Origin: Gymnopus androsaceus JB14
Lineage: Eukaryota > Basidiomycota > Agaricomycetes > Agaricales > Omphalotaceae
Reading direction: 5' to 3'
DNA: 64,000 bases
Assembly (NCBI GenBank): GCA_009733575.1
Contig: ML769570.1
Coordinates: forward strand, 62,001-126,000
This document shows positions 21,576 to 51,121 of the stretch, piece after piece. A model generated the notes under the pieces. It was given only the letters and a program-made list of their open reading frames with translations. It ran no database searches and had not been told where the DNA came from. The stretch's first letter is position 1. The number at the start of each line of letters is the position of its first letter. The position numbers and the translations under genes are program-made.

Positions 21576-21599
21576 ACGGCACCGTACGCGCGTACGATG

Positions 21600-27032: not shown

Positions 27033-27646
27033 CACTGCGGGGATGAGAGCATAAACGGACCGAAAATATACTGAAAATATGACGAGGATATAGACTATTT
27101 CCGCCACGTATTCAGCGCCTGAATAAGGTGAAGAAATACGAAGGTTATTGTTAAAATCTGCACAATTTTATTTGCGTATGAGCGCCGCCGAAAGGGGAAA
27201 GAAATTTAAAAAATTTATCACTTTTCATCCAGCCGTTTATTGAAAGTATTCCTTAATTAACCTGGCTATGGTTAGGGTAATAATAATAACAAATTTCTTA
27301 TGTTTTACGCGCCCAGGTTATGTTAATGTTTTTCGGAACAGTCTCAAAATAAGGTCATAAAAGTTACATGAACAAAATTTAAAATTTTCTCTCAATTTCC
27401 TTATCATTTCCCCCCCCATAAAAATTTGAAGAAATTGTGAGTATTTTTTGAAAAAACTTGGAGAGAATATTTGCAACGATATCGTGGACGTCGAGACGTC
27501 GCGGATCCACGATTTCTGGATATCGAGAACGATATTTACACGATATCCACGATGTCACAAATTTCGTTACTATCTGTATATTGCAGGCGGAAACTGACAC
27601 TGCAAAAAGGATGTTATGATTATCAAAAGAAATCCAGGAGAGATGA
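27033..27646 (+). repeat. Left terminal inverted repeat of the giant element
   Basis: This AT-rich repeat ends internally at CCAGGAGAGATGA. Its inner 170 bp (27470-27640) is rich in nested palindromes such as ATATCGTGG with CCACGAT, and GACGTCGAGACGTC. The partner is 50509-51121, and a partial third copy lies at 53196-53586. Confidence 0.85.
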
Positions 27647-27708
27647 ATTTGATATTGATATTTTTGCATATAAAGATCCTTATATAACACCTTTTGAGTT
27701 CGCCCATT

Positions 27709-29460
27709 TCAAGTCAATGATGTGCGTGTTCCGGGACATCTCTGTTCTCTAAGGTGGCGCTGACGAGCTTGCACAAGTGAGAATGTCGTCCCGCAACCAC
27801 GCAGACAGGTGAACCGTTGCGTTTTATCATGAGCGCGAATGTGGCCTATTTCACCGTAATTGTCAATAGGATCAATTGGAAAAGACAGCAACTGTCCAAC
27901 ACTACCTTGCAAAGTTTGTTTGGTTCCCAACTCCGCGAAGCAAATGTGACAAAGAAAACTCTTTGAGCTCTTACTCAACGATGGGCTCAGGGGAACCTGT
28001 AGGATGTCCCGGAATTGACGGTATGACAAGATGGAAGGACTGTGATTGCCTAAAGTAACTAGCATGTATCAGACAACTCGTCACACAGAACACTTTCAAG
28101 TACTCACAAGCCTATGGCTTCCCCGTCACGTTGTATCGTCGCTCGATCGCTCCGTTAAGTCTCTAAATGCGAACCCCCAATTAAATAACCCCGACGGGCC
28201 GATGTTGTGCGGTAGTTTACGTCGGGGAGATGACCTTGTTGAGATCGCGAGGTATGTGAATATTCATCGGGAGATGGAGACCGATGGGTCGAAGTTGTGC
28301 GCTAACATGTAGGTTAGAACATTTCGCTGGAAACAAAATTATAAAACCCACCATGGAACTACTTCTATGGAGTTCCCCTCCGTGCATCGATGGAGGGTTA
28401 GGACTAGTGAACCCACTCATGGCTTCCGGAATCACACTCATCGGGCTGATATTGGCCATCATGCTATGCGGCTCCGCCAGCATGTCGAATTGTGATATGG
28501 CAGTAGAGTTTGATTCAGGTGAGGACTGGCCACGGTAGGTGTGCCCTGGATGGTAATCCGAGTACGAGACGTACATCGAAGCGCGTTGGGGTACTGAAGG
28601 AGGAAAAATCCGAGGTTCCTCTTCAGGGATCGGTCGGGAAGGAGGAGGTAGTGCCATGATTGGAGGCATAGGTGACAGTTCGTGGGGAGGGGGAATTGTG
28701 AACCCAACAAACGGTCCGTCAGCTGGAATCATGCCATCGGGTGGGATGTTTATTGGAGGATGGCGAGGGGACGGCGGAATATTGTGGACGATAACGGGAT
28801 ATATCTGACCTGTCGTAGTGCTTGGCAGAGGAGGGGCAACTGGGGCAGTCTGGATGGGTGCAGAAGGATGTGGCGGATGTGGCGGAGGTGGAGGTGGAGG
28901 ATAATCTTGTGGCTGAGGTGACGAGCGACGGGTACTGCTAGAAGGTTCAAATGGCATGGGATGTGGCAAAGGAGGTTCCGATTCTAGGTCATCACCCTCG
29001 GTATAAGAAGTCTCTCCATCTCCAATAGCAGCACTTTGCAACGCATGAGCCCTTTTTTCACTTGTTTGACTACGCCATGCTTCGAAACTGGGCGGTTCGA
29101 CCTCCGTTCCATTGCTGCCCGTACCGGTTATGTCTATGTAGGCGGAGAAATAAACAGACTGCTACTCACCAACTGCGCCATTCGAAGAGAAAGTCGAAAC
29201 AATACTGGTAAAACGGATCCAGATCTTGAATATCACTCAATAACCTGAAAATAATTGTCATTTAGAAAGCTGAACGATCGAGAGCTAGATCTAGAACAAC
29301 TTACCCGTCCATGAGACAAGATGAAGGAAGTTGCGGAAGAGCGAGGCTGTTCAGTGGCACACACATCAATCAATTTTTGAACACACAACGGTTCATACTT
29401 TCTATCATTAGTGCGAGAACATCTCCAGAAAATCAAATGTATTACATCATTACGATTCAA
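27709..29460 (-). CDS. Proline-rich protein with C-terminal C2H2-like zinc finger
   Basis: Reading from 29460 down, the N-terminal exon has RKYEPLCVQKLIDVCATEQ and SSATSFILSHG. The next reads SDIQDLDPFYQYCFDFLFEW, and the third carries SFEAWRSQTSEKRAHALQ. A long proline-rich exon follows (29041-28330). The last exons contain FLCHICFAELGTKQTL, then FTCLRGCGTTFSLVQARQ and RHLREQRC, a C2H2 or atypical zinc-finger arrangement. This suggests a nuclear DNA-binding regulator. The intron at 29247-29305 leaves the frame uncertain and some acceptors are non-ideal, so the model is approximate. It lies just inside the left TIR. It may be cargo or a host gene engulfed by the element. Confidence 0.5.
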
Positions 29461-29586
29461 CGCTTTGACATGATGGAATTAAGTACTTTGCTCAATATTG
29501 AGTTTTAAGTATAGGTTAGCCAAAACTCGGACCGAAGGTCCTTAAACCAGAAATCAAAAAGAAAAGTCAGCAATTTGAGTTTCGAG

Positions 29587-32165
29587 TCATCCTGGAAAAA
29601 GACGATCATCGTTCGGAATGTGAATTCGAAGTAATGATGCACGAAATGCATCGTGGAGACCTCGTTGCTCTAGTCTCGAAGGTATGTCCATCCTAAAGGT
29701 GGAATTTCCGACAGGAATGAGCGGGGCATACGGCTGATGTTCAGTTGACCCGTCGGTTTCAGGGTGATATGCACTGGACATTTTTAGTTTAGTGCCAATC
29801 AAATTATGCAAGTGAGTCCAAAACGTGCTCGTAAATACTGAGTCGCGATCACTGATAATGTTCTTAGGGAGTCCGTGATGTTTATAGACTTCGGAGAAGA
29901 CTAGTTCTGCAATTTGTTTAGCCTTGTAGGTTGTTTTACTGGGGATACAGTGTACCATTCCCGTTAGAAGATCAATGATAACCGTTATCATGTCGTATGT
30001 TCCGTTTCGGTCCTTCGACTCAGGCAGGGGACCAACAAAGTCCATTGCAATAGATTCCCAGGGATAGCTTGGGACCGGTAAGGGATTCAGTAATCCATAT
30101 GGGTGAGCATTGTTCGGTTTTGTACGCTTGCATGTGGGACAAGATTTACAGTATGAATCCACATCTGATATTAGGTCTTTCCACCAAACATGGTCTCGAA
30201 GGTAATCCATTGTTTTCTTTGGCCCGAGATGGGCTAGAAGCGAGTGAGCTTCATCAATAATGCATTCTCTAATGTTTCGGCCATTTACGGTGAGTTTCGG
30301 GATGCATAGGACTTTCCTGTCCCGTAATTTCAGATACACAAGACCGTCAGATACTTCAAAGTTTCGGAAGTCCTTAGGTTTGTCAATAATTTTCTTGAAT
30401 ATTGAATCGTTCTTGTACTGATTCTTTAGGATAACTTCTAAATCCAGTTTGGATCGACTTGCCGCCAATGCTGCAAGTAGGGATGTGTTTGTCGATTCTC
30501 GTGGAACATCATCCGTTTCTACTGGTTCAGGGTCAGGTCCTGAATTCTGGGATTCGCTTGGTGTTTCCAAATGTTCAAGTTCCTGTTCCTTTTCAGGGTT
30601 GGTAGGGGGAGTTTCAGGCAAAGTGAGATCTAGATGGGTACTCACGCCCTCCTTTCGTTCTTCACGGGGACCGTGCAAGACGAAACGTTTATTTTTCATC
30701 CGGCGAGCAAATTCCCAGCTATTTTCAACCCTTTTTCCAGCATTACAAGTACTCATTGCGAATAATTCAGGTATCAATGATGCAGCCTCAAGATCAACAA
30801 GCACGGGCATTGTCACATTGTGCACTAAAAGTGCGTCGTTATCAACAACATCATGGTATGTGTACTCACTGCGAGCACGCACAGTTCCTGGCTGATCATT
30901 TGAGTAGATTCGCGATAAGGCATCAGCAAGGATGTTATCTTCACCAGGTACATATTCAACTTCAAAGTTGAACTCGGCAATTTTTTCAAGCCATCGAGCT
31001 TGTCTGCCGGACAAGTCTTTCTGCTTCAGTAGGTGTATAAGACCTTTATGGTCTGTAACCCATTTAAATTGCACACCTTGTAATATGTCGCGATGGCGTA
31101 GCATTGTTTCGACACCAGCCAACATTTCAATTTCATGAACAGGGTAATTTTGCTGAGCTGAATTCAGCTTGGCAGAATAGAATGCTGCTGCTTTGGCAGT
31201 TTTCCGATTATCACCCTGACATATAGCGCCACCAATCCCAGTTGCGCACCCATCAGTAATCATCCATACAGGGGGCGCGTCCTCAGCATAATTCAGAGGT
31301 ACACGATGGTGGTCTTTGGCACCACCTGCAAGATGTTTGACATCCTCGAAGGCTCGTTGTTCAACGTAAGTCCATCGGAAAGGCACAGTATCTCCTGGTG
31401 ATTGAACTAAGATGGCCCATCGGTACCCGTACCAGGCCAATGTCATCGGCAAGATATCCGACAGAGCCCAAAAAGCCTCGGAGGAGATCACGATTGGTCG
31501 GGGTTGGCCATTTCAGAATGGCATCGATTTTATGTGGGTCCATCCGGATACCCTTGTCATCAATTATGCAGCCTAATAACTTTAGTTCTTTAGGCAAGAA
31601 ATTGAGTTTTCCTTCACTCAGGTAAAGCTTTTCTCGTTTCAAAATGTCAATTATTATTTTAACATGTTTTACATGATCTTCTAGTGTTTCTGAATAGATA
31701 ACAATATCATCAAGATACACATCCATGAAACGACCAATGTATTCTGAGAAAATATAGTCCATGAGTCCCTGGTAAGTTACCGGGCCATTACAATCCCCTT
31801 GTTGTATAACAAGACTCACCATGTTACCATCCGGCGTAGTTACAGCTGTGCGTGGTACATGTTCTGGGACAATTGGGATCTGTTCATAGGCATCTTTGCC
31901 GTCAATAATTGAACGATATTTTGCACGGGCAACTCGCCTTTTGATCCTTTCAATATCCGGCATAGGAGAGGAAAGTTTGCGAGTGTTAGCATTTCGTGCA
32001 CGCAAGTCGACAACGACGCGCATTTTAGTACTGCCAGGTTTCGGGATTAGTAACATGGGTACCGTATTACCAGAACTGCTCATTTTCCACCTACCCGAAC
32101 CCAAGTACGCATCGCGTTTCCCGGCCCATTCGCTCCGGAACTTTTCTGGGCACTTTGACTGGCCT
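29587..32165 (-). mobile_element. Ty3/gypsy retrotransposon pol, truncated at both ends
   Basis: The minus strand encodes reverse transcriptase, starting at SEWAGKRDAYLG near 32130. It contains VVDLRARNANT, the active site YLDDIVIYSE near 31700 and LLGCIIDDKGI. RNase H follows (WMITDGCATGIGGA and VTDHKGLIHLL), then the zinc-binding HLGPKKTMDYL with CKSCPTCKRTKP and the integrase core (MDFVGPLPES, IISDRDSVF, SSAYHPETDGSTE). A frame break separates RT and RNase H near 31400. Directly after GSTE the sequence jumps to the extreme C-terminal LRIHIPNDDRLFPG, so an internal deletion has removed the third catalytic residue of the integrase. Gag, protease and both LTRs are missing. At 32165 it is cut by a TIR element. 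It is inactive. Confidence 0.88.
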
Positions 32166-33105
32166 CCAGGGTGCGGTAGGCGGGAACTGCCAGGCTCGAT
32201 TTAAAAATATTTTCAAGTCCCATCCCGGTTGCAAGGCCGAACTGCCTGGTGGACCCGTGTAACTTAACTAATATGCTGCCTTCACAAATGATATCAAGGG
32301 ATTAACAGAAGCAAAGCGAAGCTATGGAACACTGTCTCACTGAACGTAGACGACTATCGAAAGGCCTAGCTGCGGAGACCATACAGCCTGCAGGTAGCCA
32401 AGAAGTTGTCACTGATATCCTTCAGGGTAAGTAGGTTGCTTCAAAGTATTGATCATTTTCTGGCCAGTCTACTAGAGGTTATGAACCGGGTTTCAATGAC
32501 AAGAGTATTTAAGATTTAAGTATGTGTCAATGTGAAGTATGGAACTAAGAAAGGAGCAGTAAGTAGACTAATTGATTCTGAAGTAGTAGTGGTTAATCTG
32601 AAACAGAGCAAGATCCTTCATATATCTGTAAGTAAATTAATGCTCGGTCAAGCTCCCGAGGTCGATTGCGTAGTTGTGAGACGCATATATGCGTGCAGAG
32701 TGGACAGGGGCATCAGCAAAACCTGGGTGAACTATGGATTGCTATGGATTGCTATGAGTTGCTCTACAGCACTGTACAGAAGCTCCAATACAATCCATAG
32801 CAGTCATAGAACTGTCCAGTTCTGGACAGATGGGGACCTTGCTATGGGACCACCCAGGTTTTGCTGATGAGGTACGAGCAGGTGAGCTTTTTGGAAGGCA
32901 AGGTAAGGTGGTCGGATGAATTGTAATGCCTCATGCAGGGAATGGCATCACAGAGCGCGGTATAGCCCAGTTTTTCAGTATAAGTAGACCTTAGAGTACT
33001 TCAGTTTAATCAGGCTATCCGGGTTGTTCAGCCTCGTAACTCGGCCAGGATTAGAAAAATATTTTTTAATTGAACCTGGCAGTTCCCGCCTACTGCATCC
33101 AGGGT
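32160..33105. mobile_element. Non-autonomous TIR element of about 945 bp
   Basis: GTAGGCGGGAACTGCCAGG at about 32175 is matched in inverse at 33075-33093. Homology of the inverted arms extends about 90 bp inward. The element has no transposase and interrupts the gypsy reverse transcriptase at its left edge. Its exact tips and target duplication are not resolved. Confidence 0.6.
32709..32871. mobile_element. Nested MITE of about 163 bp
   Basis: CATCAGCAAAACCTGGGTG on the left is a perfect inverse of CACCCAGGTTTTGCTGATG on the right. The inside also folds on itself (CTATGGATTGCTATG with CAATCCATAGCAG). It sits inside the 945-bp element and has no coding capacity. Confidence 0.65.
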
Positions 33106-33139
33106 AAGATTTTCGACTCATCGATTAGTGGGATTGTAT

Positions 33140-33690
33140 GATTTATCTACGACTGCGACAGCAAGTTACAAGAAGATAAAACTGACTCGTTGAAATAGCT
33201 TATAGGGAACTCTCCAGTCTTCCATCCGGGAAACTCAAGGGAACCAGCAAATGTCTCTCCAATGATATTGACCATATTGGGAGCGGTCCATTCGAGTCCA
33301 GTATGTTCAGAATAGAGACAGGGTTTCCCATTAAAGCTTCTGCTGGAATTTCTCAAATCTACCGAACTGCACCTCTTTCGAAGTGCCTGAACATATCACT
33401 TCATTGTACTTAGTCTGGGATATGATACACTCGAATAGGGGGGAGCTCGATTCATTCATCAAGAAAACAATGGCGCGTGCACGATTTATTGAAGCGGTAG
33501 AGGAAGAGAAACAGAAACAGCATTCGAACGAATACAGATATTGTAATGGCAGAGCCATCCGAGACTCCAACTCCAACAGCAGCAACAGTGTTATTCGAGG
33601 ATTCGGAAGGTAGCAGCGAGGAAGATTCAGAAGATAGCGGTGAAGAGGCATTACGATTCACGGAGAATACCTCGTCTCTCAGTCTTCTTT
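33140..33690. other. Stretch with short acidic frame, unassigned
   Basis: A plus-strand frame at 33546-33761 contains an acidic run (EDSEGSSEEDSEDSGEE), and an overlapping frame has KKTMARARFIEAVEEEKQK. Neither is linked to a recognisable gene. The acidic frame ends within the repeat family that starts near 33690. Confidence 0.25.
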
Positions 33691-34690
33691 TCGCGGCCTT
33701 TAGCCATCTTAAAGATTCGGAAATATGTGCATTGTTTTCTAACTACGAGTACTCGACATAAGTTGGACTTACCAGGACTACGTTGAAGTTGAGACGAGAG
33801 AGTAAAAGGGTGTGACATAACGCTTGACTGACATGGTATGCTGTAACGACTGCTTTGTGCTGACGTTTATCGATAAACGTCAGCACAAAGCAGTCAGTTA
33901 CAGCATACCATGTCAGTCAAGCGTTATGTCACACCCTTTTACTCTCTCAGTCTCAACTTTGACATCAGCGGATCCAATACAGTATTCCGCTACGGCTCTT
34001 CGATGCGGTCAGTGCCCTTACGTACGTTAAATGCACTCGTATAAGCGTCCTCAAGAAACTCCGCAGTTACGAAAATCATGCATATTGGCGAACAGCAATA
34101 CGCGCTTCTCCGCTGGTACAAACAGCATGAAGAGGAAGAGCTCCTTAAACCTCTCGAAGAAATTGAAAGCTAGCGTTAGTGTCTCTCGAAAAACAGAATC
34201 GATACCCGCATATCCTAAATGTGTTCCGTATCATTATCCTCCTTCGACGCCGGTAAGACAAGGGGGCAATTGCACGATTTATTTATTTTTGCTGACAAAC
34301 GTTTGCAGACGGAATCTAAGTGCGACTCTCAAACAAGCAGCCGAGCCTCGTTGGGAATCCGAGGCAGCAGAAGCACATTATCTCCTGCAGCTAACGAACA
34401 CGTCGTCTTGAACCAGCAGGAACATGTAAGTGCTATGTTATTCCTCGCGAGCTATCCAGATATACTGAGTCCTTATGTCAATGACTTCCACTACTACTAC
34501 TACTACTACTACTATCAGAACCAGGGACCTAGGCCAAATCCTCAAGTACGCGCTCTCGCATCTTGGGGTGGGATGATCTGAAAGGGAAAGGAATTTGGGG
34601 ATGTCGGGTTTACAGGGATAATAATTGTTGCATGCTGTCTCGAGAACATTAAATGCAGCCTATTGATACAAATTCTAGGAGAATCTGAAA
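33690..34690 (+). repeat. Fold-back element family, copy 1
   Basis: Homologous to 47040-48520. The shared order is GGCCTTTAGCC, AAATATGT, a long palindrome, GATCCAATACAGTATTC, ATGCACTCGTATAAGCG, a short conserved frame (GEQQYALLRWYKQHEEEELL), and TGCATGCTGTCTCGAGAACA. A CTA microsatellite lies at 34492-34515. The conserved frame suggests a decayed gene carried by the repeat. Confidence 0.65.
33786..33960. repeat. Long near-perfect palindrome (about 87-bp arms)
   Basis: The arms run from AAGTTGAGAC through GACATAACGCTTGACTGAC and CTGCTTTGTGCTGACG to a centre at TTTATCGATAAA, with almost no spacer. Only a few bases mismatch. It would extrude as a cruciform. Confidence 0.9.
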
Positions 34691-34859
34691 GGTTTTGTTC
34701 TCAAAGTAAAGAGTGAATAAAGAGAACAAGATAATTTAACTGTACCTCACAGCACCGTCATATAGTGGGTCGGCCTGTCTTTCCGTCAAACACCTATAGG
34801 TGAAAGTTAGACACTGAGATAGAAGAGTAGATATGCGTATACCTTTGGATAAGGAAGTA

Positions 34860-37800
34860 CATGCATAACGGTCTGACCTTCAATGAGAAGGTCAGTTTTG
34901 ACGAAGTGGCAGACGACGTGTGATAGAGGCACAATTTCCGTGGCAAGAGGCTCCGGTTTACACAACCACCCCATCTGTAGTTCTCGATATAGATCGCCGC
35001 TTGCATCTATGGGCTCCAGAACAGAAAGTTCCACAAATGTTTCCGTCGCCGTCAAGGTCGTTTTTGGATGGGGGTATACATGGGAAAAGATGCGCAAAAT
35101 CTGCCCCGCCTTGAAGGGAGCCCTTCCGCTGATTCGGCGCTCTTCCTTAACTACAACATAGCTGTTTTCGAGTTTGATTCTAGCGGGGGAGAAAATGACT
35201 CAGCCGAGAGCGATTCCCTCCATCTCTGTCACTCCTGAAGTAACTTTTCCAGTCCAGTGGGATGACGGCACACTGTGTATGCGAGATAGCCACCTTGATA
35301 TTTGGTGCAGCTCGGCAAGGGTGACAACGGAATGTTTGGACTTGAATACAGTGGATGACCAGGCAGTAAGATCTGTCTCTGCAAACATACCACAGATGAT
35401 CTTCTCCGTCAATAACTTTCAGTTTCTCCAAGGCCTCCGGGATGATATCGTGGATTTCGTCATGACCATCAAGTAATGCTTCAAGATTAGCTTGAAGGCA
35501 ATATGTCTTCAACATTGTTGTCTCCATCTCACCTGCTGGTTGTAAGTATTTCATTCATGCGTATTTCTATCAAGAGTTGAACTTACCCGCATGCCGATTT
35601 TTCTTAATCATCTGAAGCACATGATTTGTTTGTTCAAAGACAGGAGTGCTCCGAGAATGTCCAGGACCCATGCTTTCCAGAAATTCGGACATATGCATAC
35701 TGTAGTGGTGATTTGGTGTGAAGCCTACATCGGGAAAAAGTTCTTGTACGCCCCTGAGGTATTTGAGAATCCAGAAGTCATATTCTTCCCTGAGTTTGGG
35801 GGTGGTTACTCGAAGCAAAAGGATGTGGGTGGCCTTCACTAGATCCACGAAATTCAAAAGCATCCTGCGTCTTCGTTCCCCTGCTTCCCCATAACCCCAA
35901 ATGCGAATCAATGTGACCACTAAATGAATGGTGCCGACTATTTTCCATTCGTTGCCACCCAGTTTTCCTGTTCGAGCGAGACCCCAATGTACCGGTGCAG
36001 GACTTATCCAGCTGGGGTGAATAGTGCGCATCATGTCTGCCCAGGCCGCTTCTAGCACATCCCTTCCTATTACCTTGCGCGAAGATAAGTCCACAGATAA
36101 ATTGCTGGGACGATGTTCATCGCGCTGGAATAGCATGTAGTGTCAGAACAGTGGTTTTGTTTCTAATGAAGACATTTACCCAAAGCTGGAGCCACTGCAC
36201 CATATTTAACTTATGAGAGTCCGCAGGGATTAAAAGGTCGGAGCATAGTTGTACTAGGAACTTCGAAGGGATTCGTTCAAGAGATCTCGAGCTCATCCCA
36301 TCTTTCAGAAATTTCTCTCTGAATGTCGCATATTTGACTGCATCGATAGCTGCAGATGCTCCCCCTTGCTCTTCACGCTAAACTAAGTGTGAATAATTGG
36401 ATCATCATAGAATGGATCACATTACACCTCACCCATTTGTTTAGCCGCTGGAGAAGGTCCTTTTTGTCGTCCCTCGAATTGACACTGATAGAGAGATCGA
36501 AACAGAGAGCCTTAAGACGGGGGAGTCTCTCCCTTTGTGGTACGTCCTTAAGAAGCTGTGCTCTCCGTAAGAGTTCATCGTATGGCTGTTCCTTCTCTTT
36601 GTTCAGACTTGAACGGTCATCTATATCCATGGTGCCTTCAGCAGGACGTAGCGAGTGCTCAGAGGTCGTGCTCGATGCGCGTGACGAACTCGAACGTGTC
36701 TCCGATATGTTAGACTCGGCATCCGAAGCATCCGAAGTATCCATACTATACAAATCTCCTGTTTCTTCATTTTCGGCTGCACCTCCTTGATTTGCATGCT
36801 AAAAAGTATAAATGGGTGTCCATCTGTAAAAAAAAATTGGCTGAACTCACCCAGAGATCAATGTGAGCCAAAAGATGCTTAATTTGATCTGTAGGATGAG
36901 TCGGGATAGATAAATCATAGCACAGAGCCTGCAAGCGATCTTTCCTTTGTCGTTTTAAGGATGGTGGAAGCCCCGTTGTGTGGTCCTTTACCTGTCTTAG
37001 CAGCTCTGTGTATGAGATCAAGTCCTTTGGATGATCCAACGATGAACGATCTACTTCCGATGGGCCCATTTGCGGATCCTGACAGTTAAATTAGGAGATA
37101 CAAAGACAAACCGTAAAAAGCAACAGCATACTCTATCTTTTTGCCTCGACTGCATAAATTCCAGCGGAGGTATTACTGGAATATCTTCTGAGGATATGGA
37201 AGTTCGCTATAGAGTGATCGACCTCAATAAATAGGAAACCAGCTTTTGATCCACTTACCCATTTCAAAAGCGCTTCAACATGCTTTGCCTTTGTACCTGC
37301 TGTGCCGAGCTGCAGGTAGAAACATAGATACCAGAGTAGAGGTTTCTGCTGTGATAGCAGGAATCTTTCCAGGTCTGAATCATTATCCACATTGCGGATC
37401 ATGTTCCACACCTGGCGTAACAGAGAATTCGGTGGCTTCTGATAATCTTTCCGTGCTTTTGTCTGACCGAGCCCTCCCTCCGCGTCCTCATCTATGCCCC
37501 AGATATCGCGAATGTGGGTTTCAATAAGACCCAAAAGGCACATGTGCAAGTCGTCAATGACAGTGAATGCAATAGGGTCAAAGCCTGGTAGACGTAGGAG
37601 CTCAGACCAACGTACTCCATATTTCTTGTAAATATCATTACGTATCTTTTGAGTAGCCGCATCCCGCCATTCAGTCGCACGTATTCTATGCTGCTCGGGA
37701 TCGCGCCTAGGCCAAGAAGTTCTGTCGAGGTTACTGATATCGCTTTTGGGAAGCAAACAGCGTGTGCAAAACAATGTGTGTGTAGGTGAAGGAAATCCTA

Positions 37801-38239
37801 CGAGTTGGTGTGCACCCAGTGAATCACAGACAATAGGGACTACGACCAGCGATACATTACGCCCGAATGGATATTTGGCAGTCTGGAGGTAGTGTAGGCC
37901 TTCCTCTAGTGGCAAAAGAAGATTCACCACCCGATTCAGGATGTTGTTGATTAGATGCTGTTTGGGTTCGCCAGGAAGTACCGCTAGTAGCAGCATGTTC
38001 TTCTTCTGGAACCTCATGCGCTCAGGAAGGACGAGTAAGTACATGTATAGAGCTGTAGATTGAACAACGGCATGGGCCGTTTTCGATTGGAATGGATTGA
38101 ATGCATCACAACCTAGACTGGCTACGACACGTAAGGGGGAAATACCAGTGCCTGATCTGCCGAACTGAGCAAATGTCTTGGAATCCGTTAAATCCTCCTC
38201 CCTGTCTGGAATTAGGCGACGCTTCTGGTATTCAACCAT
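34860..38239 (-). CDS. Tnp2-type (CACTA) transposase with four SAP-like modules
   Basis: The first exon visible (38239-37244) has the Tnp2 fold of basidiomycete CACTA elements. It reads LGCDAFNPFQSKTAHAVVQS, the polar block PLEEGLHYLQTAKYPFGR, then VVPIVCDSLGAHQLVGF, FCTRCLLPKSDI and VIDDLHMCLLGL. The usual N-terminal region is missing or very short, so the 5' end may be truncated. Four small modules follow, each with the pattern L-x2-LC-x-DL and ending in W exactly at an exon end. C-terminal exons contain DVLEAAWADMMRTIHPSW, HYSMHMSEFLESMGPGH and VVVKEERRISGRAPFKAGQI near 35140, then HVVCHFVKTDLLIEG near 34890. Frames near 35200-35380 are ambiguous. This is the only DNA transposase gene inside the giant TIR element and its likely mobility gene. 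Confidence 0.72.
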
Positions 38240-38500
38240 CAGCCTTAGCTGTTATCCTGACTGCTTGAACTTGGGATATAACCACAAGTTCCAAACTCTT
38301 CACCAGGGATAAGACCATAGCCCTCAATGCACAAAGGGATATTACCATGCACCCTTAATGAAGAGCAGTTATGGATAAATCCCTAGTGCCTACCACAGTC
38401 ACATGTACTCAAGTACTCGTGACTTTCCCCGCTCCTTCCCAAATGGGACATGGTGCGCCTCTTCCCGATTGGGAAGGAGCGCTCCCGGGCACGGTCGCTG
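38240..38500. other. Spacer 5' of the Tnp2 gene with a hairpin
   Basis: GCTCCTTCCCAAATGGG and CCCGATTGGGAAGGAGC form an inverted repeat around 38429-38490. It lies about 190 bp upstream of the presumed transposase start. No coding sequence was recognised. Confidence 0.45.
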
Positions 38501-38632
38501 GCCGAAATGGCCATAATTCAGACCAAAATTAATGGCACCTTAACTACTTGAACGGTAGACCTCTAGGATGCACACCAATGAAGCGCCAGGCAACAAACAG
38601 TAAGTTGCTTAATCCACTAGACCATTGCAGCG
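38500..38632 (-). repeat. tRNA-derived SINE-like element, copy 2
   Basis: On the minus strand CAATGGTCTAGTGGATTAAG (A-box-like) is followed by AGAGGTCTACCGTTCAAGTA (B-box-like) about 45 nt later. The layout and the GGTCTACCGTTC block match the element near 8.3 kb. Confidence 0.4.
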
Positions 38633-39430
38633 ATAATATACGCCTCATGAATGTCCTCCATTAACCTTTCTCCATTTCTCCAACCCAGTGGGTATGCAGC
38701 CATAGATCTGTTCGCGTGATATATAGCTTTGTATTCCTTCCTAGAGCAACCGGTTATCGAATTATTTATACAATGTGTTGTACAAACCTCTATAAACGTA
38801 AAAGCACGGACCAGAAGTTTGGTTCCATCGGGAGAAAACCTCGGACAGGCATAAAAGTCGGCTCCAGATACGAGAGGCGTTACAACCTGTTTCTCGGTAT
38901 CAATGATCACCAATGTGTTCACCACAGTGGAGGGTGTGTCGTTAGTGTGATCTTTGAGGATAGAGACAAGGATCCGTGGATTTGTGGGATGAACGTCAAA
39001 GAAAGCGTAACGAAACGCCTTGTTATCTGCAAGTTTTGGTTAGTAAATCCAAAGCGATGAATAAAGAACATACCAGGTGTAACTGGCTCGGCTTGACTGC
39101 CCTCCTTCACTGCAACTTTGTACAATCGATTATCGCTAAAATCGGAATAATGTGCGATTCTATCGTGAAGGATTGCTGCTGCTCCACCGTATTCATGCAC
39201 TCCAGTCCGTACATTGACCTCTTTCCCTAAAATTTCTCGGCCAGTTTCAGAGTGTACGAGAACACATTGGCCTTTTTATGCAGGACGCCCTTCCAAGTGG
39301 TATATCTCAGAAGTAAAATCATCGAGTATTATCTCTTCCGTTGAAGCTGTCTATGAGAATTCTGGATCAGTATGGTCGAAGACAAGCGATGAAATAACTG
39401 ACGCTGCCAGTGATGCGCTCTGCGGACTTC
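38617..39430 (-). pseudogene. S9-family (prolyl oligopeptidase type) peptidase, N-terminal relic
   Basis: The minus strand starts YGTWKSAE near 39420, shifts frame, and continues ISSLVFDHTDPEF, IYHLEGRPA, VHSETGREILGKEVNVRTG and VHEYGGAAAILHD. It crosses an intron (39072 to about 39026) and goes on ILVSI, NTLVIIDTEKQ, and YACPRFSPDGTKL. This is the beta-propeller half that in intact enzymes precedes an alpha/beta-hydrolase catalytic domain. Two stops and a frameshift occur before 39200, and the catalytic domain is absent, so no peptidase can be made. It stands immediately next to a P450 relic in the same orientation. Confidence 0.75.
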
Positions 39431-39654: not shown

Positions 39655-40790
39655 GGAAGTAAGACCTCCGCCGCAAGAGCATCAGGAAGGTATCGTTCAG
39701 GTTTGAATTCCACGGGATTGTGATATGCTCGTGGATCATGTGTTAGTTTCCTGAGACGCAGCAATAAGCATAAGATGGTAAAGAAATGGTAACATATACC
39801 ATACCATAGATTAGGAATGAGCAACGACCCTTTGGGGATGAAGTATCCATTGTAAAAGTCATCCTGTGTCGCTCGGTGAGGGACCGCCAAAGGCGTAACA
39901 ACATTCCACCGAAACACCTAAGAGATAGATTCGATTTCATGCAGTATTCGAATACCTCTTTGACCAATGCATCCATGTATGGCAGCAGCTTGTGATCTGC
40001 GAATGTGGGGAGTCTGTCATTTCCTACTACCGCATCGATCTCAGCTTGCGCTTTACGCGCAACATCGGGGTAGAGTGCCATGGCGAGGAAAAACAAGTAG
40101 ATGGCCGAGACGGTTGTATCAGTGGCGCCTTGGGACGGAGAAGGGATTAGTAAAACATTGACTAAGGAGAAGGCTCAGTTACTTACCGCTATACAAAGAA
40201 GCTGCGGACCATTTCAGATCAAACTCCTCCTCCTCGGTGAGCTGTTTGCTTTCAAGTAGTGAGCTGGTGAAGGAGATTATTGCCGTGCCAGCAATCTATG
40301 AATTATAACAATTCATTAATCAGAGTAACGGGATGAATAATAGGGCAGAGGAAGGTAGTGAAGGATTAACAAATTCCTAGGAACTTCAAATTAAAACAGA
40401 GGACTTACGATCTGCTGCTTGCAGAAGTTGTGAGGCAGTTCGACAAGTTCGACGAGAGTGCCAGCCCATTGTTTCGCATTTCTTTTGAAATCTGCACCAG
40501 GCATCCAGTCGGGGACGTGTCGGACTATAGCATCATCGAATAGTCAGCTTCAGAGGTCATTTACCGTGTAAACAGAGAAAGAGGAGTAGTGGTAATAAGA
40601 CGTGGAAGAAGAGGTAGAAAAAATAAGGATAAAGTAGACTTACGAGCGGGAATACAATCAACCATAAACTGCCCAGTCGATGTTGCGAGCGAAAACTGTT
40701 CAGTAGCGGCATTGGCTAGTGTAACGAATGGTCCTTGTGTTCTTGCACTTCATAGCCGTGCGAGATACGAAGAATCACTGCACCGGCGGT
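39655..40790 (-). pseudogene. Cytochrome P450, internal fragment without N-terminus or heme-binding region
   Basis: Exons on the minus strand read RISHGYEVQEHKDPFVTLAN, then STGQFMVDCIPA, VRHVPDWMPGADFKRNAKQ and IAGTAIISFTSSLLESKQL. The I-helix follows with GATDTT near 40130, then KAQAEIDAVVGNDRLPTF, the ExxR motif across an intron (KEVF joined to RW), VPHRATQDDFYNGYFIPKG, and FKPERYLPD near 39690. The order and introns are those of a fungal CYP monooxygenase. The N-terminal membrane anchor is missing before 40790. The sequence also leaves the family just before the heme-binding cysteine, so it cannot bind heme. Confidence 0.82.
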
Positions 40791-40794
40791 CCTA

Positions 40795-42340: not shown

Positions 42341-42379
42341 CATGTATTGAAGCGAGTCCAGAGCATCCGGATGATATCT

Positions 42380-42830: not shown

Positions 42831-43629
42831 GATTGTAGCAAGTGGCAGTTGGGATAAAGGTATGTACATGCCTTTGAAGTACTTTTGCCTACTCTCAGTT
42901 GTTTATCGGCTCATTATCAAAACAGGAGACTTGTCCAGATCGAAAAATACACCATTTTTACAATCGTAGCCGTTCAAACTTTCCTCCACGAAGAGGACAT
43001 TCACCTCGAAGGGACCATTCTCCGACTCCTGCGTTCGAAGAAGAAACTGTTACAGATGTATTCATTCGTGCTGTAGCTGTCGAGGTAAAGGCCATGGTCT
43101 TGGTTACGAAGAAAACCCACGAAACAGAGAAGAGAATAATCCCAAGTATGCCTTTCTCGGACGAGATGTGAGCGTTCTTTTGTCATCCCAAGGTCCATTG
43201 CTGATCATGAACTAGGGCTGACGTTACAATTTCTACCGAAATCTTATCGAAGACGAACAAACAACCCATGTCACCTAAATTTGATAATGAAGTGAGCTGA
43301 ACTTTTTTAAATCAGACTCTTCGTGCTTGATTAATGAATACAATTTGGCTACTCGACTGATTCTGCAGAAGAGTCTGAACACGAACGGATACGCCAAAGT
43401 ACTCTGGGAAGATTGGCGCGGAAGAGATTCGAGGCAATGTTACGAGCTCTTTCTGGGAAACGTGGTGAAATCGTCCGAGGGTGCCATGGCAGTCTTGAGC
43501 TCTGTTTACTTCAACATCGATGGCTAAGAAAGCGTTGGAATCTCAGCTCTTGGACCTTATCTTCAGTCCTTTTTTCGGTGCGTTTTTTTCACTGCGTGCA
43601 CGAGTGACGGACTCTGATCTTGACCTTTT

Positions 43630-44460
43630 TTTGAGACACCTTCTATTCCAACAAGGAGTTCTTTCTTCATGAACTCATCTCCACGCCTCCGACGCTCTCG
43701 ATAGAATCCGATACACGTCTTTAACCGACCCTTCAGACTTCCGTGCGAAGGATTTATCATTTGTCTTGTCCCAAACGAAGAAGCAATTCTTCTCCGTTAT
43801 TGATACTGGGCTACCCTCTTCATCCACAAAAACCCGATACGCGTCTTCGATCGATCCTACACTGGGAAGGACTTGATCATCCGTCTCGTTCCCAACACGG
43901 AAGCGAATGTCCTCTCCATCATCAATACTGGTATCGGTATGACCAAGGCTGATATGGTCAACAACCTTGGTACCATCGCAAAATCTGGAACAAAGGTCAG
44001 TGGTTTTTTCGTTCTTGTTTTTCATTCATTCACTCATTTTCACTGCGATTTTAGGGTTTCATGGAAGAGCCTTGATATCTTTATGATCGGTCAATTCGGT
44101 GTCGGTTTCTACTCTGCCTACCGTGTCGCCGAGCGCGTACAGGTCATCTCCAAGCACAACGACGGTGAACAGTACGTCTGGGAGTCGGCTGCTGGCGGTA
44201 CCTTCACCATCACTCAAGACACCGACAACCCTCCTCTTGGCCGTGGTACCGAGATCCATCTTTACCTCAAGGAAGACCAATTCGAATACCATGAGGAGAA
44301 GATGATCAAGGACATCGTGAAGAAGCACTCACTCGGAATTCATCTCCTGCTCTATCCAACTTGCCGTCACCAAGGAGGTTGAGAAGGTAAACTTTCTTCG
44401 TAACGTTTAGTACGCGTCGAGCTAACTTTGTTCCTTTGTAGGAGGCAGAGGCAGAGGCCG
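43630..44460 (+). pseudogene. Hsp90 N-terminal ATPase domain relic with internal duplication
   Basis: The sequence starts like DTFYSNKEFFLHELIS near 43636, loses one base, and continues ASDALDRIRYTSLTDPSDF. It then repeats part of the same region ([14 protein letters not shown] near 43831) before [20 protein letters not shown] and KSGTK. An intron follows, then [36 protein letters not shown] and [17 protein letters not shown]. These are the signature segments of the Hsp90 nucleotide-binding domain. A frameshift follows KKHS near 44330, and a final piece resembles VTKEVEK then an acidic EAEAEADAE. The middle and C-terminal domains are missing. It is not functional. Confidence 0.85.
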
Positions 44461-44927
44461 ACGCCGAATGGAGAACTTATCATTTGTATTGAATCTATGA
44501 ATCTGAATGTAGGCTACATGGCCCGGCGTAGAAGTGACATAATTCAATTAGTGTATTTAACTTATGTACATCGTTCGCATGAACAAGTGGTTAGTGCGCA
44601 CCGTGAGCGTTTACTGCATTGATTAGGCGCTGGAGTATTCCTAGAGCACAGGGTTCGATTCCTTGCTACGACATTTTACTCCGGCTCCATGTCGGTCCGG
44701 TGAATGATTCCGGTGTCCCCGTTGCACTTATCTTTGTCAGCGCGTACCTCCGCCTCGGTGACTCATCATCCCGACGCTATGGGTGCTGGGGAAAACTGGT
44801 GCATGGGATATATCCCTTGGTCATGTTGGTGCTACGGATTTATCCCGTAGCGCCATTCCAGAGGCATTGGCTCTTCTGTGGTTATATCCTTGCTGAAGCA
44901 TTTGCAAAGTAGGGATGTAGCCTAGTG

Positions 44928-46896
44928 TCAAGCCTTCAGGATAACAGTTACAGGTGGGTCATCGTCAACATCACCTTGATACGCAGTTTCTACACCCTCA
45001 CGATTAAAACGGATGTCTTCAACGCGCAGACAGATGGGCATGATTAGATCGTTCGACTCCACCGCCGGCAGTGGTTGACGCTTAACTTTTTGACTCTTTT
45101 GCGACCATGCGTTTTCGTTGGGGTACCTGTAGTTGAAGAATCTACGATAGATAAGCCCTGGCACAGTTCGCAAATAAGCAGCGAGCTTGGTGTTTTTGGG
45201 TAGCATGCTATGTGCTTGAATATATATATATCCCGATCTCGGATAGCGTGACTTGAATGCACCTCGAAGGACACTGGGATGAATTTTATTAGCTTCGAAA
45301 TCAGCCCATATCTTTTCAACGGCCTCGGTTTCGCTACCGCGCTTCAATGCAAGTCAGACCAGTCAAATTATGAAATAGATATAAAAATGCGCTTACCATG
45401 CACCGTATAGCGAAAATCTGGTAATCTTGGGTGGTAGTCCCGCTGTAGTTACTCGCTATCCAGGCTGCCAGAAGTTTCTGTTCTGATGTGTGCTCCTCTT
45501 CCATCTCTACCTCTTCTTCCTCGTCGTTTATGGTAGATCGATGTTTGTCCACACTTATCATTGCGGCATCCTCAACCAAGCCCATCTTCGCTTCGAGTTC
45601 CTTCACAGTCTCGCTTGTCATTGCGCTGTCCTCAACCAAACCCATCTTCGCTTCGAGTTCCTTCGCAATCTCGCTTGTCCGCTCATCCCATTCATCGGGA
45701 TCCATGTCATTGATTTTGCAACACATAGCCCAAACGTCGTTCTCGTAGTCATTGCCAAACACTTTCTGGAGCTCTATTCGTGCGTCAGGAAGCGACAAAG
45801 TGGTCGTAAGCATCCTCTGCGCAATTCGCCACCCTTGCAAAATGCGGGAATTACTAAAAAAAACTCCGTAAGACCTTTACAGCTGATAATAAAAAATAGT
45901 GACTTGCCAATTGGAAAGTTTATCTGTTTCGCCAACGTTGATATCGTTTGATGGTGCAGGAGAGTCGCCATCTGTTTCAGGCAAAAAGAGAGGAAGAGGA
46001 GCAAGAGGTGGCGCTTGTAAGGGAGAAAGTGAACGACACACGGGAGTTGTGACTCCTCCAGCAGCTCCACCAAGCCATTCATCCGATAAGAACGAACTTG
46101 GAGGTGCTTGTGAGAGGGAACGCGAGTGTTGAGTAGGAGTTGCGCCTGCAGCAGGTGTGGGGGCACCGTCATGCCATGGCGAGAGCGGAACGGGAGGCGT
46201 TTGCGAGCGAGAAGGTGATTGAATAGGTGTACCTCCTGCAGGTGTAGGAGCACTCAAAGGCCATTCCTCCGCAATCTCATGCGACGGGGCTGCTGGAGGC
46301 GTTTGTCCAGGAGGGAAGCAAAGCTGATGATTTCGAATGTCTGCTACCATTCTGGCAAGTTCTTTGCTCTCAGCCTCACGCAAGATACATTGAGATATAT
46401 CGTAGGCGCGTATTTCGTACTGTAACTCGTTCTCTCCAGATATCACTGGAATGTGGGTGAGAACGGTACCGGTACAGGTCTGCACTTTGAGCGGGATCGT
46501 GTTGGGCGGAGGAGATGAGGATGGCTTTGCACGAGCCCGTTTTTCAGGACGAGGCAGGGATGATAGATCTGTTTGCGCTTTGCGCTTGTTCTGTCGCGAT
46601 TTCTCTGGTTTCCGTTGTATCTCCTGCCTTGCCCACTCTCCTTGAACCGCATAATGTTCCCATCTTTTCGCAACTTCTAAAACTCCGTAGACCTCGTCTC
46701 GTCTCCGCAACGGTACACTCTCAGCAGCCTGGCGTGCTCGTTCAGCGGCCATCAATTCGTCGTCGTCCGAATCGTCCAATTCATCGTCGGATTGCTGAGC
46801 TTCTACATCGACTAATATTGAGCGGGATAACTGTAGGAAATTAGTGTTATATATTATACATGTAATATGATATACCTTAAGCTTAGACGAATCCAT
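44928..46896 (-). CDS. Spt5-like protein with NGN-type domain, TE-associated
   Basis: A short first exon (MDSSKLK at 46896) splices to an acidic exon (SILVDVEAQQSDDELDDSDD) as in Spt5 N-termini. A long Pro/Ser-rich segment follows. The next exon reads LQGWRIAQRMLTTTLSLPDA and NDYENDVWAMCCKINDMDP, then two tandem copies of ELEAKMGLVEDSAM. The last exons give YQIFAIRCM then RGSETEAVEKIWADFEANK and SGYIYIQAHSMLPKNTKLAA, which fit the NGN fold (CRxGxE ... GYIYIxA). They end in a basic region and DPPVTVILKA. Spt5 is a transcription elongation factor; shorter Spt5-like proteins of unknown role occur in mushroom genomes. The exon 2/3 junction near 45905 is unclear. A paralog lies at 62961. Confidence 0.5.
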
Positions 46897-47039
46897 GTTT
46901 CGAATACCGAGTGCCGAGCTGCTGGCGACTGCCACAACGCTAACTGCTATTGGAATCGTCAGCATACCATTCAAGAGCATAGCTCATCTAACATCTCTCC
47001 GTTTCTGCTTTTTTTGATAACTTCTCACTTTTTTTGTAG

Positions 47040-48520
47040 GCCTTTAGCCGTTTCAAGCATTCCGAAATATGTACATTGTTTCTATTAACTATACGAACTA
47101 AAGACGACTTACCAGCAGACGACTTGACTTACCAGCAAAGTCGAACTTGAGAACAGAGAGTCAAATAGCGTGACATAACGCCTGACAGCCATTGATATGA
47201 CAGTAACGACTGCTTTGTGCTGACGTCTCGATAACACATCAGAAAGCGCTGACGTGTTATCAAGACGTCAGCACAAAGCAGTCGTTACTGTCATATCAAT
47301 GGCTGTCAGGCGTTATGTCACGCTATTTGACTCTCTGTTCGTCAGCTAACGTGTGCACTAGTACTGGCAAAGATGCGCTAATGCCTTTTAACAGAATTTG
47401 ATGGATGTTCCTGAGCTGGAGGAAGCCTTTAACACAATGTCGACGGTGAGATTGACGAAATGGGACGTCGCAGAGCTCCTGAGCGATACGATTCTGCTTG
47501 ACACACTTTTAGCAAAGATACCTTCGTAAATCCAGATTGCGTTTCGCTCAGCGATCCATCGATTTGGCGTTCCTTAGATATGCTCTAAATTTGAAGATTG
47601 CTGACAATGTCCGATGAGCAGGAAGAGGAGGATCAATGGTCGCGTCAATGACCTCTCCCGCATGAATCCAACCTATTCCGATACTCAATCCAGTCATATG
47701 TTGAAGCTCAAGATTGATTCCTCTTTCAAAGTCCCTTTGTCCCCGGATCCAATACAGTATTCGCGCTACGGCTCTTCGATGCGGTCAGTGCCCTACGTAC
47801 GTTAAATGCACTCGTATAAGCGTCCTCAAGAAACTCCGTGTTACGAAAAACACATATCGGCGAACAGCAATACGCGCTTCTCCGCTAGTACAAACAGCAT
47901 GAAGAGGAAGAGCTCCTTAAACCTCTCGAAGAAATTGAAAGCTAGCGTTGGTGTCTCTCGAAAAACAAAATCGATACCCGCATATCCTAAGTGTGTTCCG
48001 TATCATTATCCTCCTTCGACGCCGGTAAGACAAGGGGGCAATTGCACGATTTATCATCTCCTGTAGCTAACGAACACGTCGTCTTGAACCAACAGGAACA
48101 TGTAAGTGCTATGTTACTCCTCGCGAGCTATCCAGATATACTGAGTCTAAGATCATGAGCCCGGGCCCTTATGTCAATGACTTCCACTATGGCTACTATT
48201 ACTATCAGAACCAGGGACCTAGGCCAAATCCTCAAGTACGCGCTCGATCGCATCTTGGGGTAGGATGATCTGAAAGGGAAAGGAATTTGGGGATCATGAA
48301 GTCCAAGGGACATTTATTACCGATTGATTTCAATGTCGGGTTCATAGGGATAATAATCGTTGCATGCTGTCTCGAGAACATTAGATGCAGTCTACTGATA
48401 CATAAATATGAGATACCCGGAACAATGAGCATGGCAATCTTCCTTTGTATCAACATTCGGGAATCCTCCGAGAAGCGTCCGAGATTTAGAGTACTCAAGT
48501 CTGCTGTTATAGAGCCAGCT
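47040..48520 (+). repeat. Fold-back element family, copy 2
   Basis: The same order of blocks as 33690-34690 is present, plus about 400 bp extra between the palindrome and GATCCAATACAGTATTC. The extra part contains frames such as ELEEAFNTMSTVRLTKWDVA and SRKRRINGRVNDLS, so this copy preserves more of the original gene. Both copies end with TGCATGCTGTCTCGAGAACA. Confidence 0.65.
47152..47341. repeat. Long palindrome (about 90-bp arms, 6-nt loop)
   Basis: GAACAGAGAGTCAAATAGCG at the left matches CGCTATTTGACTCTCTGTTC at the right in inverse. The loop is AAAGCG. The arm core CTGCTTTGTGCTGACG is shared with the 33.8-kb palindrome. Confidence 0.9.
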
Positions 48521-49330
48521 GGAGACTAGAATTCGAACCCATTTCTTATATCTCTGGTCGCTCCCATTCCTCTCATTGGCTCCATTTCTCCGCTGGCACC
48601 AAAATAATGTGATCACAATGGAGCATGAGCACGAGCATCTCGTTCCTGCCGCATGTTGTATGAGTTTGAATTTTCTATCCGAATTTTGGGATATAGTTCT
48701 ATCTCCTTCATTCCCATGTTGAGGACGACTGATGGAGATTCAGAAGGTTCGACGCGGTACGAAATCCTATTGGAAGCAGTTTCTCGTTAAATCATGCTAC
48801 ATTGAGGCCCACAAGCACATACAATGATGTGGTTGACTGCAATGCCTCCAATGTCGCCGCAAGGAATAATTATCACCCTTATTCAATCATCCAAACATAC
48901 GTACATGGTTGGATGACTCGACTGAGCCATCTCATCGCATCGTTACCTTACACGAATATAGACATTTTGCATGATCATGGTGTGCTTCGATCGCACCGAG
49001 AACCTCGAAAATGTTGACATGGTGGTATGCCCCCATATCAATCAAATCTCACTGAAATTTTTTCAGAGGTGTCAGTCGGCACCGTCCCAGGAATCCCATG
49101 ATCTTCCAATTTTGTTCTTAAAGAAGCATTTTACAGTCAGAAATGGAGTGTTAATCTCTCCGCAAGTGAAATCGTTTTCTCTATCCTCACCACCACGCAC
49201 ATTGAAAATGAATGATGCTGTATCTGCTTCTTATAGATTTGTCTCCGTCACTACAAGTAGGTTCTGTCCAGCATCCAAGAATAATTCTTGACCTTAGTAC
49301 TCCCTCATCATAGAATCGATAAATTTCTCT
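48521..49330. other. Spacer with no recognised gene
   Basis: There are short open frames only. I see no conserved motif, tRNA pattern or repeat shared with other parts of the window. Confidence 0.4.
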
Positions 49331-49419
49331 TCAACTGAGAAAAAGTCTCGGACGTCGCGCGAGCCTTACTGTCTCCGAGGTCAGTCATTTCTTATTTAAT
49401 TGGGTAACTCGGATGGATA

Positions 49420-49690
49420 AATTTATAATTTGCTTACCCGTCGTCATCCTCAGCCTGTGATTTCTGCCACAGGCGAAGACGCAAATGTATCAAAAGTGAC
49501 AACGGCGATGAAAAATGTTTAAGATGCAAGAAGGAACACCGAGGTTAGTTTTTTCTTTCTTGGTAAATTACCTTGACTGATTTCGAAACACTGAAGAATG
49601 TTCGTATACTCGCCAGCGAATGCTTGGCGACCCTTCTATTATCAAACGAATAAAGTTGACTGTTACCGCTAAGCAAAATAAGGTTCGAAT
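49420..49690 (+). pseudogene. Zn(II)2Cys6 fungal transcription factor DNA-binding domain, fragment
   Basis: After a plausible acceptor the frame reads SACDFCHRRRRKC, then CLRCKKEHR, and across an intron (49544 to about 49597) reaches the sixth cysteine in ECSYTRQRM. The spacing C-x2-C-x6-C-x9-C-x2-C-x6-C is the canonical binuclear zinc cluster of Gal4-type regulators. No regulatory or fungal-specific transcription factor domain is seen downstream before the right TIR, so the gene is partial. Confidence 0.7.
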
Positions 49691-49699
49691 ATTCTGTTA

Positions 49700-50508
49700 T
49701 CTCACACAACAGTTGCTCAGCATATACACCAACTTCGTCGGCTCAGCCACAATGTACCCTGCTTAGCTGTATCGCAAGGTCCTCCAATCATAGATCCTGG
49801 CACCCGAAAACGCCTTACAGCCCGAATTGCATGACATTGAATCGAATTCTACCTCTCCCAGCTCCCTTTTGCATTCCTCCCGTACCCTCTCTGGCTACGT
49901 ACTCGCTTGCAGAAAATAGATCAGATCGGCTTGCGCCCATTTTTGTCGGGCCACAGCCATCATCCTTACCTCCGCTCAAGGCATTACTCGCAGAATTGTA
50001 GAAAATCGTTGAACTTTTGTATGTAATCTTGCTCATCGATAATAAATACTTTTATGCATATAACACAGATCGATACGATGATATCAAATAACACGCAAAG
50101 ATAGTAGCCACCCGGGTGCAAATAAAATTTAGGTAGCAAGGACAGCAACTTCAAGAAAGCAGTGATATGTAGATATATAGTATATGCGCGTATAGAAGGA
50201 TTCTGGAAGCTCAACTCTGAGTGTGAGCATGCGCCAAAAGATAGAAGCAGTTGATTAAGCCTGCAATTTCGAAACTGTATATGTACTGCGACGTCGACGA
50301 CGTCAAGATGGCATGACCCATCTATACAAGCAGCGAGATGAGCGAATTATGGTGCTTTTAGATGAGAAAACTGTACATGGTCCGAATCTTAATATCCCGC
50401 GGAAACTTTCCCGTCGTTATAATCAGGGATCATTGACGGCTTAGGGGACAAACTCGAGGCACCCTGCAAGACACCATAATCAGCACTGGAGACCGAGCGA
50501 AAAAAGTA
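49700..50508. other. Spacer between Zn2Cys6 fragment and right TIR
   Basis: No convincing gene is visible. Short frames on both strands lack motifs. The stretch is of mixed composition up to the TIR edge at 50509. Confidence 0.4.
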
Positions 50509-51121
50509 TCATCTCTCCTGGATTTCTTTTGATAATCATAACATCCTTTTTGCGGTGTCAGTTTCCGCCTGCAATATATAGATAGTAACGAAATTTGTGA
50601 CATCGTGGATATCGTGTAAATATCGTTCTCGATATCCAGAAATCGTGGATCCGCGACGTCTCGACGTCCACGATATCGTTACAAATATTCTCTCCAAGTT
50701 TTTTCAAAAAATACTCACAATTTCTTCAAATTTTTATGGGGGGGAAATGATAAGGAAATTGAGAGAAAATTTTAAATTTTGTTCATGTAACTTTTATGAC
50801 CTTATTTTGAGACTGTTCCGAAAAACGTTAACATAACCTGGGCGCGTAAAACAGAAGAAAATTGTTATTATTATTACCCTAACCATAGCCAGGTTAATTA
50901 AGGAATACTTTCAATAAACGGCTGGATGAAAAGTGATAAATTTTTTAAATTTCTTTCCCTTTTTGGCGGCGCTCATACGCAAATAAAATTGTGCAGATTT
51001 TAACAATAACCTTCGTATTTCTTCACCTTATTCAGGCGCTGAATACGTGGCGGAAATAGTCTATATCCTCGTCATATTTTCAGTATATTTTCGGTCCGTT
51101 TATGCTCTCATCCCCGCAGTG
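50509..51121 (-). repeat. Right terminal inverted repeat of the giant element
   Basis: This is the inverse of 27033-27646. It starts TCATCTCTCCTGG inside and ends CCCCGCAGTG at 51121. Immediately after it come TAACGTTCAATATCACAG and GH16 copy 3. Confidence 0.85.

Follow-up and report, generated by a model that had tools for sequence, protein, structure and literature searches.

Cut-and-paste transposition by a DDE enzyme is established for elements of the CMC (CACTA/EnSpm-Plavaka) superfamily. In the accessible part of its description, CNIRT6, a CACTA element of Cryptococcus neoformans, is about 7.5 kb long with terminal inverted repeats (TIRs) of 24 bp (PMC12810828). Partial texts also describe a soybean CACTA element, Tgmt*, of 20.5 kb with 13-bp TIRs and asymmetric subterminal repeats (PMC2613891), and enlarged En/Spm families of 16-20 kb with four to five open reading frames (ORFs) in the red alga Chondrus crispus (PMC6431247). 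From sources likewise available in part, help from TET/JBP genes has been proposed for other mushroom transposons (PMC12730594), a Marasmius repeat library holds elements of up to about 42 kb whose kind is unstated, and Starships, which use another enzyme, have been reported from a basidiomycete. Many large repeats in basidiomycete genomes stay unclassified. Here we analyze a 64-kb stretch of contig C188 of the litter-decomposing mushroom Gymnopus androsaceus JB14 (the window, to which coordinates refer unless a contig is named), in which positions 27033-51121, 24,089 bp between inverted ends, are a DNA transposon carrying a transposase gene and part of a gene resembling the transcription elongation factor Spt5.

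The TIRs are 613 bp long (left, 27033-27645, plus strand; right, 50509-51121, minus strand), and 27032-27646 aligned with the inverse of 50509-51122 at 98.5% over 615 columns. The outer tips are CACTG...CAGTG; at the left junction TAA is followed by CACTGCGGGG, and at the right CCCCGCAGTG is followed by TAA, the two triplets (27030-27032 and 51122-51124) being recognized as target-site duplication from the junctions and from comparison with empty sites. The flanks joined with a single TAA aligned across the junction to a GH16 paralogue within the window (87 bp at 87%), and of 13 genome-wide matches to the joined flanks, 6 extended across the junction by 20 bases or more on each side, the best of them, on C247, at 95%. 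Matching empty sites together with TAA on both sides mean that the 24,089 bp were inserted as a single piece with a 3-bp duplication, which is read from a single insertion, the window copy being the only one that shows both ends. An assembly join between the ends is disfavored because exact empty sites exist elsewhere and because, across the 82.6 kb of contig examined, N never occurs five or more times in a row. The target is the expected GH16 gene: ORF 52606-53181 matched solved beta-1,3-1,4-glucanase/laminarinase chains (best E 1.8e-20), and a Pfam scan of the same ORF was without match. The 24-kb block is one DNA transposon inserted as a unit into the 5' region of a GH16 gene at TAA. An earlier reading made from the DNA letters (the sequence-only reading) had proposed this transposon with its TIRs, tips and duplication, and had taken the flanks for two halves of one GH16 5' region; both proposals hold, the relatives being continuous across the junction.

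Long TIRs with CACTG tips define a transposon family in this genome. The left TIR as query found 14 places, namely three in C188, nine further ends and two fragments (C308 and C858), and a search for the tip pattern that allowed three mismatches gave 11 places, against none for its reversed control. A core of about 540 bp, common to all subfamilies, was kept in 11 of 11 ends compared; these form four clades, with an identity of 66-81% from one clade to another and of 93-99% inside each of the two clades with several members. Outside the tips the triplets vary (TAA, ATA, TAT, GCA, TGA, TCA, GAA and others). Inner DNA was readable beyond 2 kb for five of the nine further ends and for only about 2 kb inward at the other four. 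Element body or transposase was present at four of the five readable ends (C66 at 218875, C207, C101 and C284), and the suspicion that the TIR might occur elsewhere mostly as solo 600-bp units was thus not borne out; the fifth, C66 at 207479, had short matches to the element only. Bodies were common to the window copy and those of C66, C207 and C101 at 92-98% over several kb, with breaks. For none of the further copies was a second end found (C284 is N from 22364, C207 reaches the contig end, and C66 was examined to 255000). On C187, 36001-54200 contained nothing recognizable as a TIR. The search for other copies that the sequence-only reading had suggested therefore gave nine further ends outside C188, but none with both ends for a check of the duplication. 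The ends on C76 and C459 are alike in their flanks too and, judged from this, may be one insertion seen twice.

Two further observations concern these ends. On C66, the ends at 207479 and 218875 belong to different subfamilies and lie in the same orientation 11.4 kb apart; one giant element may have inserted into another. Extra conservation of the TIR tip (positions 1-40) and of a palindromic cluster (421-500), suggested by a comparison of 11 ends, was considered and dropped, since with one representative per clade 1193 and at least 1961 of 2000 block shuffles, respectively, were equally conserved. The palindromic cluster occupies TIR positions of about 440-520, and its folding as DNA is better than that of shuffled sequence (z -2.8).

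The predicted transposase falls among the DDE enzymes of EnSpm/Plavaka (CMC) elements. Its gene (34810-38243, minus strand), delimited by frames and by homology to relatives, has several exons and lacks the N-terminal part, which the C66 and C284 copies have. A database search listed eight relatives, four with PF02992 and one of those also with PF18759; the relatives that have PF02992 are 30-35% alike to the family. Re-scanning of P0006 and P0008 repeated their Pfam domains, P0008 passing the PF18759 cut-off. An alignment of eight sequences is invariant at both D, at C-x2-C and at two H columns. On the minus strand of the window the motifs are SLGCDAF (38119-38090), VCDSL (37831-37805), C-x2-C (37771-37757), NHHYSMH (35713-35693) and VFEQTN (35641-35624), the later H-H and the E having been identified by eye in the window and C187 copies. 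In CMC/CMCT transposases C(2)C and H(3-4)H precede the E of the D, D, E triad, and the enzyme has this signature. The family's own ORFs were without a PF18759 match in the Pfam scan. The sequence-only reading had placed a Tnp2-type transposase inside the element; the enzyme appears Tnp2-related by way of its relatives, but its N-terminal part is missing.

The ends point to the same class. The termini are CAC..GTG and the target duplication, from one insertion compared with uninterrupted relatives, is 3 bp, as in CACTA/EnSpm elements, whose tips are commonly CACTA or CACTG; the Plavaka termini TGT..ACA or CATCA..TGATG, which go with duplications of 2-3 bp, are not those of the window element. 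CACTA/EnSpm elements usually have TIRs of tens of bp with subterminal repeats, a usual rather than strictly defining feature, and here the core is about 540 bp in 11 of 11 ends compared. Among the 22 of 34 interior ORFs (at least 110 residues) scanned with Pfam, none matched a Starship captain (DUF3435 tyrosine recombinase).

The Spt5-like gene of the window (44957-46983, minus strand) is an N-terminal part only, matching residues 17-502 of a 1331-residue relative from Lentinula, and its KOW1-like part falls beyond the cut. Family members are listed from Gymnopus, Lentinula and Rhodocollybia, with long open frames of 837 to 1331 residues. An 11-member family profile run against the PDB returned four sequences at E <= 1, all of them SPT5 or RDM3, the best at 2.9e-4 and at the first KOW domain (KOW1). 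Of the solved chains the nearest is RDM3, which belongs to plant RNA-directed DNA methylation and is itself Spt5-like, and one family record carries the UniRef name chromatin elongation protein. The N-terminal part has what we take to be an NGN-like look. On C187, a 946-residue Spt5-like frame, with DNA 78-80% like the window and C101 arms, is followed on the same strand by transposase frames that are 41% alike. On C101 (183216-198079) the Spt5-like region is tandemly duplicated (95-98% alike) beside a 4-kb N gap, which may be a duplication or an assembly effect.

Among 41 Spt5-like loci, five lie within 10 kb of a transposase match, where 0.9 would be expected under uniform placement; the loci were merged by script from two Spt5-like and two transposase queries of the genome, and the counts are lower bounds, the best candidates having been scored. 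In all five (C187, C335, C410, C76 and the window itself) the Spt5-like gene is upstream and on the same strand. A Gypsy retroelement control gave 1 of 62 linked (1.3 expected), with the window's own retroelement excluded from the count, and the one linked locus sits inside the C66 element.

The question then is whether the Spt5-like gene works for the element or is a chance passenger without part in transposition, like the cytochrome P450 and Hsp90 pieces that the window copy also contains. The element demonstrably carries such host material, 36 of the 41 Spt5-like loci have no such transposase match within 10 kb, and C284 has no copy of the gene in its readable part. Against a passenger, order and strand are the same at five of five linked loci, with transposases that are 28-41% alike outside the window family; the Spt5-like family extends through Lentinula and Rhodocollybia; and the host pieces of the nested composite are fragments, whereas Spt5-like relatives keep their long frames. 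We regard the passenger explanation as a serious one that falls somewhat short of an even chance.

For the element as a whole, we propose that a DDE transposase of the family would pair both ends, cut at the C of CACTG and join the element to a target with a 3-bp stagger. The window copy would be non-autonomous and move only with enzyme supplied in trans by a relative. The Spt5-like gene, which in several lineages lies on the transposase strand and upstream of that gene, could be a working part that aids transcription of the element's genes in silenced chromatin, a proposal of which we are less sure. By analogy with TET/JBP it is the role we think most likely, even though we would give it less than an even chance. 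That 27033-51121 is a cut-and-paste CMC DNA transposon is, taken whole with this mechanism and the Spt5 role as the best explanation, highly probable in our judgment. The wider proposal is a lineage of giant mushroom transposons with its own Spt5-like elongation factor as a conserved working part beside the transposase, by which the element's genes would be transcribed despite host silencing, perhaps with binding sites in the long TIRs for the Spt5-like protein or the transposase; we offer it tentatively, as something rather less than probable. If the gene is a working part, a transposon would be bringing its own version of a core transcription-elongation factor, and this would give a direct way to study the transcription of DNA transposons in silenced chromatin. 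The match to RDM3 makes the link to silencing worth testing. The end sequence CACTGCGGGGATGAGA, the long TIRs, the target duplication and the gene list allow the family to be sought elsewhere.

Several results count against this explanation. Both ends are visible in just one copy of the family, that of the window. PF02992 is absent from the family's own transposase ORFs in a Pfam scan, no family locus is among the 33 PF02992 places in the genome, and the link of the transposase to Tnp2 (PF02992) runs only via relatives that are 30-41% alike. Single Spt5-like members were below cut-off or without match against Pfam KOW/SPT5, and a 141-residue query from the window's Spt5-like piece matched no Spt5 chain. 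The Spt5 scores of C335 and C76 are identical, likely from one sequence, which leaves about three lineages and not five independent ones, and over the 22 kb that can be read of C284, a divergent relative, nothing Spt5-like was matched. Finally, a third end copy lacks explanation in the element model: a truncated piece (53210-53587, minus strand), which matches the right TIR over 378 bp at 99.7% and has TAG after it, interrupts this GH16 gene a second time at a distance of 2.5 kb. The gene can be followed by homology as far as 53182, and about 28 bp of unmatched DNA lie at the inner break. It is perhaps an aborted or one-ended event.

The window copy is shorter than a whole element appears to be. 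The match between C66 and C284 continues to 26.4 kb from the left tip of C66, a position that in C284 is 9.4 kb from the tip, and a whole element would therefore be about 36 kb, an estimate from two diverged copies of which one shared block (C66 arm 23.7-24.9 kb) is ordered differently in C284. We infer a parent element of about 35 kb or more. Protein P0022 matches C66 at 219560-221397, and P0022 and the Spt5-like P0011 are listed on one 268,751-base contig with locus tags 16 apart; if that contig is the C66 scaffold (here 256,353 bases), the C66 element would also carry an Spt5-like gene, in a part beyond the DNA examined.

Between 38244 and 44956 the window copy contains a nested composite. 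Homology to relatives ends at 38243/38244 and at 44956/44957, and the 6.7 kb between are a separate mosaic with weak inverted ends (38246-38320 and 44876-44950) that are repeated genome-wide; 24 of the 77 listed genome matches end at or near its right edge, and the inverted left edge is present in four. Within it lie a P450 piece (39746-40174, from Pfam) and an Hsp90 piece (43804-44379), the extra in-frame residues of which would be an unspliced intron; for 38620-39275 a prolyl-oligopeptidase label was weighed, which none of the tools supported. No target duplication was seen flanking the composite, and the window copy lacks what C66 and C101 contain to the left and right of this position, which places the nested DNA at an internal deletion. 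The borders of the composite truncate both the transposase gene and the Spt5-like gene. The window copy is an internally rearranged, defective derivative rather than a 24-kb type element, and it can hardly be autonomous. The host-like gene relics noted in the sequence-only reading are real in the P450 and Hsp90 pieces, but most belong to the separate nested element.

A Gypsy-type retroelement piece (reverse transcriptase, RNase H and integrase; 29590-32200, minus strand) is also nested in the element. It is common to the C66 copy, with 98% DNA identity at matching places, while the next best protein match elsewhere is 56%, and it had no match in the 40 kb of C207 examined. On the simplest reading, an element already holding the retroelement would have given rise to both the window and C66 copies, and the element would therefore have multiplied with its passenger.

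The mosaic interior and the third end copy 2.5 kb away could suggest that two smaller elements inserted independently, or that end copies recombined, and that the 24 kb never moved as one. The matching TAA on both sides, the uninterrupted relatives of the target and the presence elsewhere of these ends attached to element bodies make this very unlikely. An integrated virus or a Polinton-like element is the most remote of the explanations: long TIRs and a size of tens of kb are typical of Polintons, but the element has CACTG tips, a 3-bp target duplication and a CMC-type transposase, and no viral hallmark gene was found among the 22 of 34 interior ORFs scanned with Pfam, 12 being unscanned.

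Near the left end of the transposon, a gene at 28158-29161 (minus strand) is shared with the copies on C66 and C207; it is also present, at 93%, on C38, where the searches gave no TIR. It has no meaningful Pfam match, its relatives are one protein each from Lentinula, Rhodocollybia and Collybiopsis, and it resembles a host protein of unassigned role; it is likely part of a host gene that an ancestor of these copies took up. The sequence-only reading had counted two transcription factor genes, and one remains, the Spt5-like gene as recognized via its relatives. The stretch 27712-28068 may have a zinc-finger look. Palindromes lie in both arms (33786-33959 and 47148-47344), and after each comes related sequence, several hundred bp long and 86-96% alike; the module spans 33766-34602 and 47126-48294, is also found in C66, C101 and C207, and is a repeated internal module.

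Outside the element, a cluster of GH16 paralogues occupies 9523-21703 and is repeated on C247, C582 and C158, an expanded family in G. androsaceus JB14. The 3' part of the interrupted gene (51844-53182 compared with 9923-11255) is 96% like its paralogue and the 5' part 84%, a contrast for which gene conversion is a possible explanation. A tandem array, its repeat unit about 200 bp long, lies upstream of the window, at 57472-59893 in contig coordinates of C188.

The comparison with known systems is made here as far as the available portions of the cited reports go. By its ends, CNIRT6 appears to be the nearest known system: it is from a basidiomycete and has TIRs starting with CACTG, variable 3-bp duplications and a CMC transposase with DDE (PMC12810828), whereas the window element, at 24 kb (its parent probably at least about 35 kb), has TIRs of 613 bp and carries an Spt5-like gene. 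Fungal EnSpm elements share the termini CAC..GTG and the 3-bp target duplications, and both EnSpm and Plavaka share C(2)C and H(3-4)H between the second D and the last E; some of these carry an accessory gene, which is TET/JBP and not Spt5-like, and Plavaka differs in its ends (TGT..ACA in PlavakaA, CATCA..TGATG in PlavakaB) (PMC12730594). Tgmt* is likewise longer than 20 kb, with a 3-bp duplication and a Tnp2 transposase, to which it adds a second protein; its TIRs are of 13 bp, and the part of the report available mentions no Spt5-like gene (PMC2613891). The Chondrus En/Spm families are alike in their large size and belong to another lineage (PMC6431247). The sequence-only reading had called both size and TIRs unusual for CACTA; since large CACTA elements of 20 kb are already described in these portions of the literature (PMC2613891, PMC6431247), size alone is not new, and the length of the TIRs is the more unusual feature. 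In the literature searched, of partial coverage with subscription journals mostly outside it, we found no TIRs of hundreds of bases or Spt5-like gene in the CMC superfamily, no Spt5 gene in a DNA transposon and no long-TIR CACTA giant in mushrooms. The window element is a real variant of a known superfamily, giant, with long TIRs and bearing an Spt5-like gene, and that gene is the new part.

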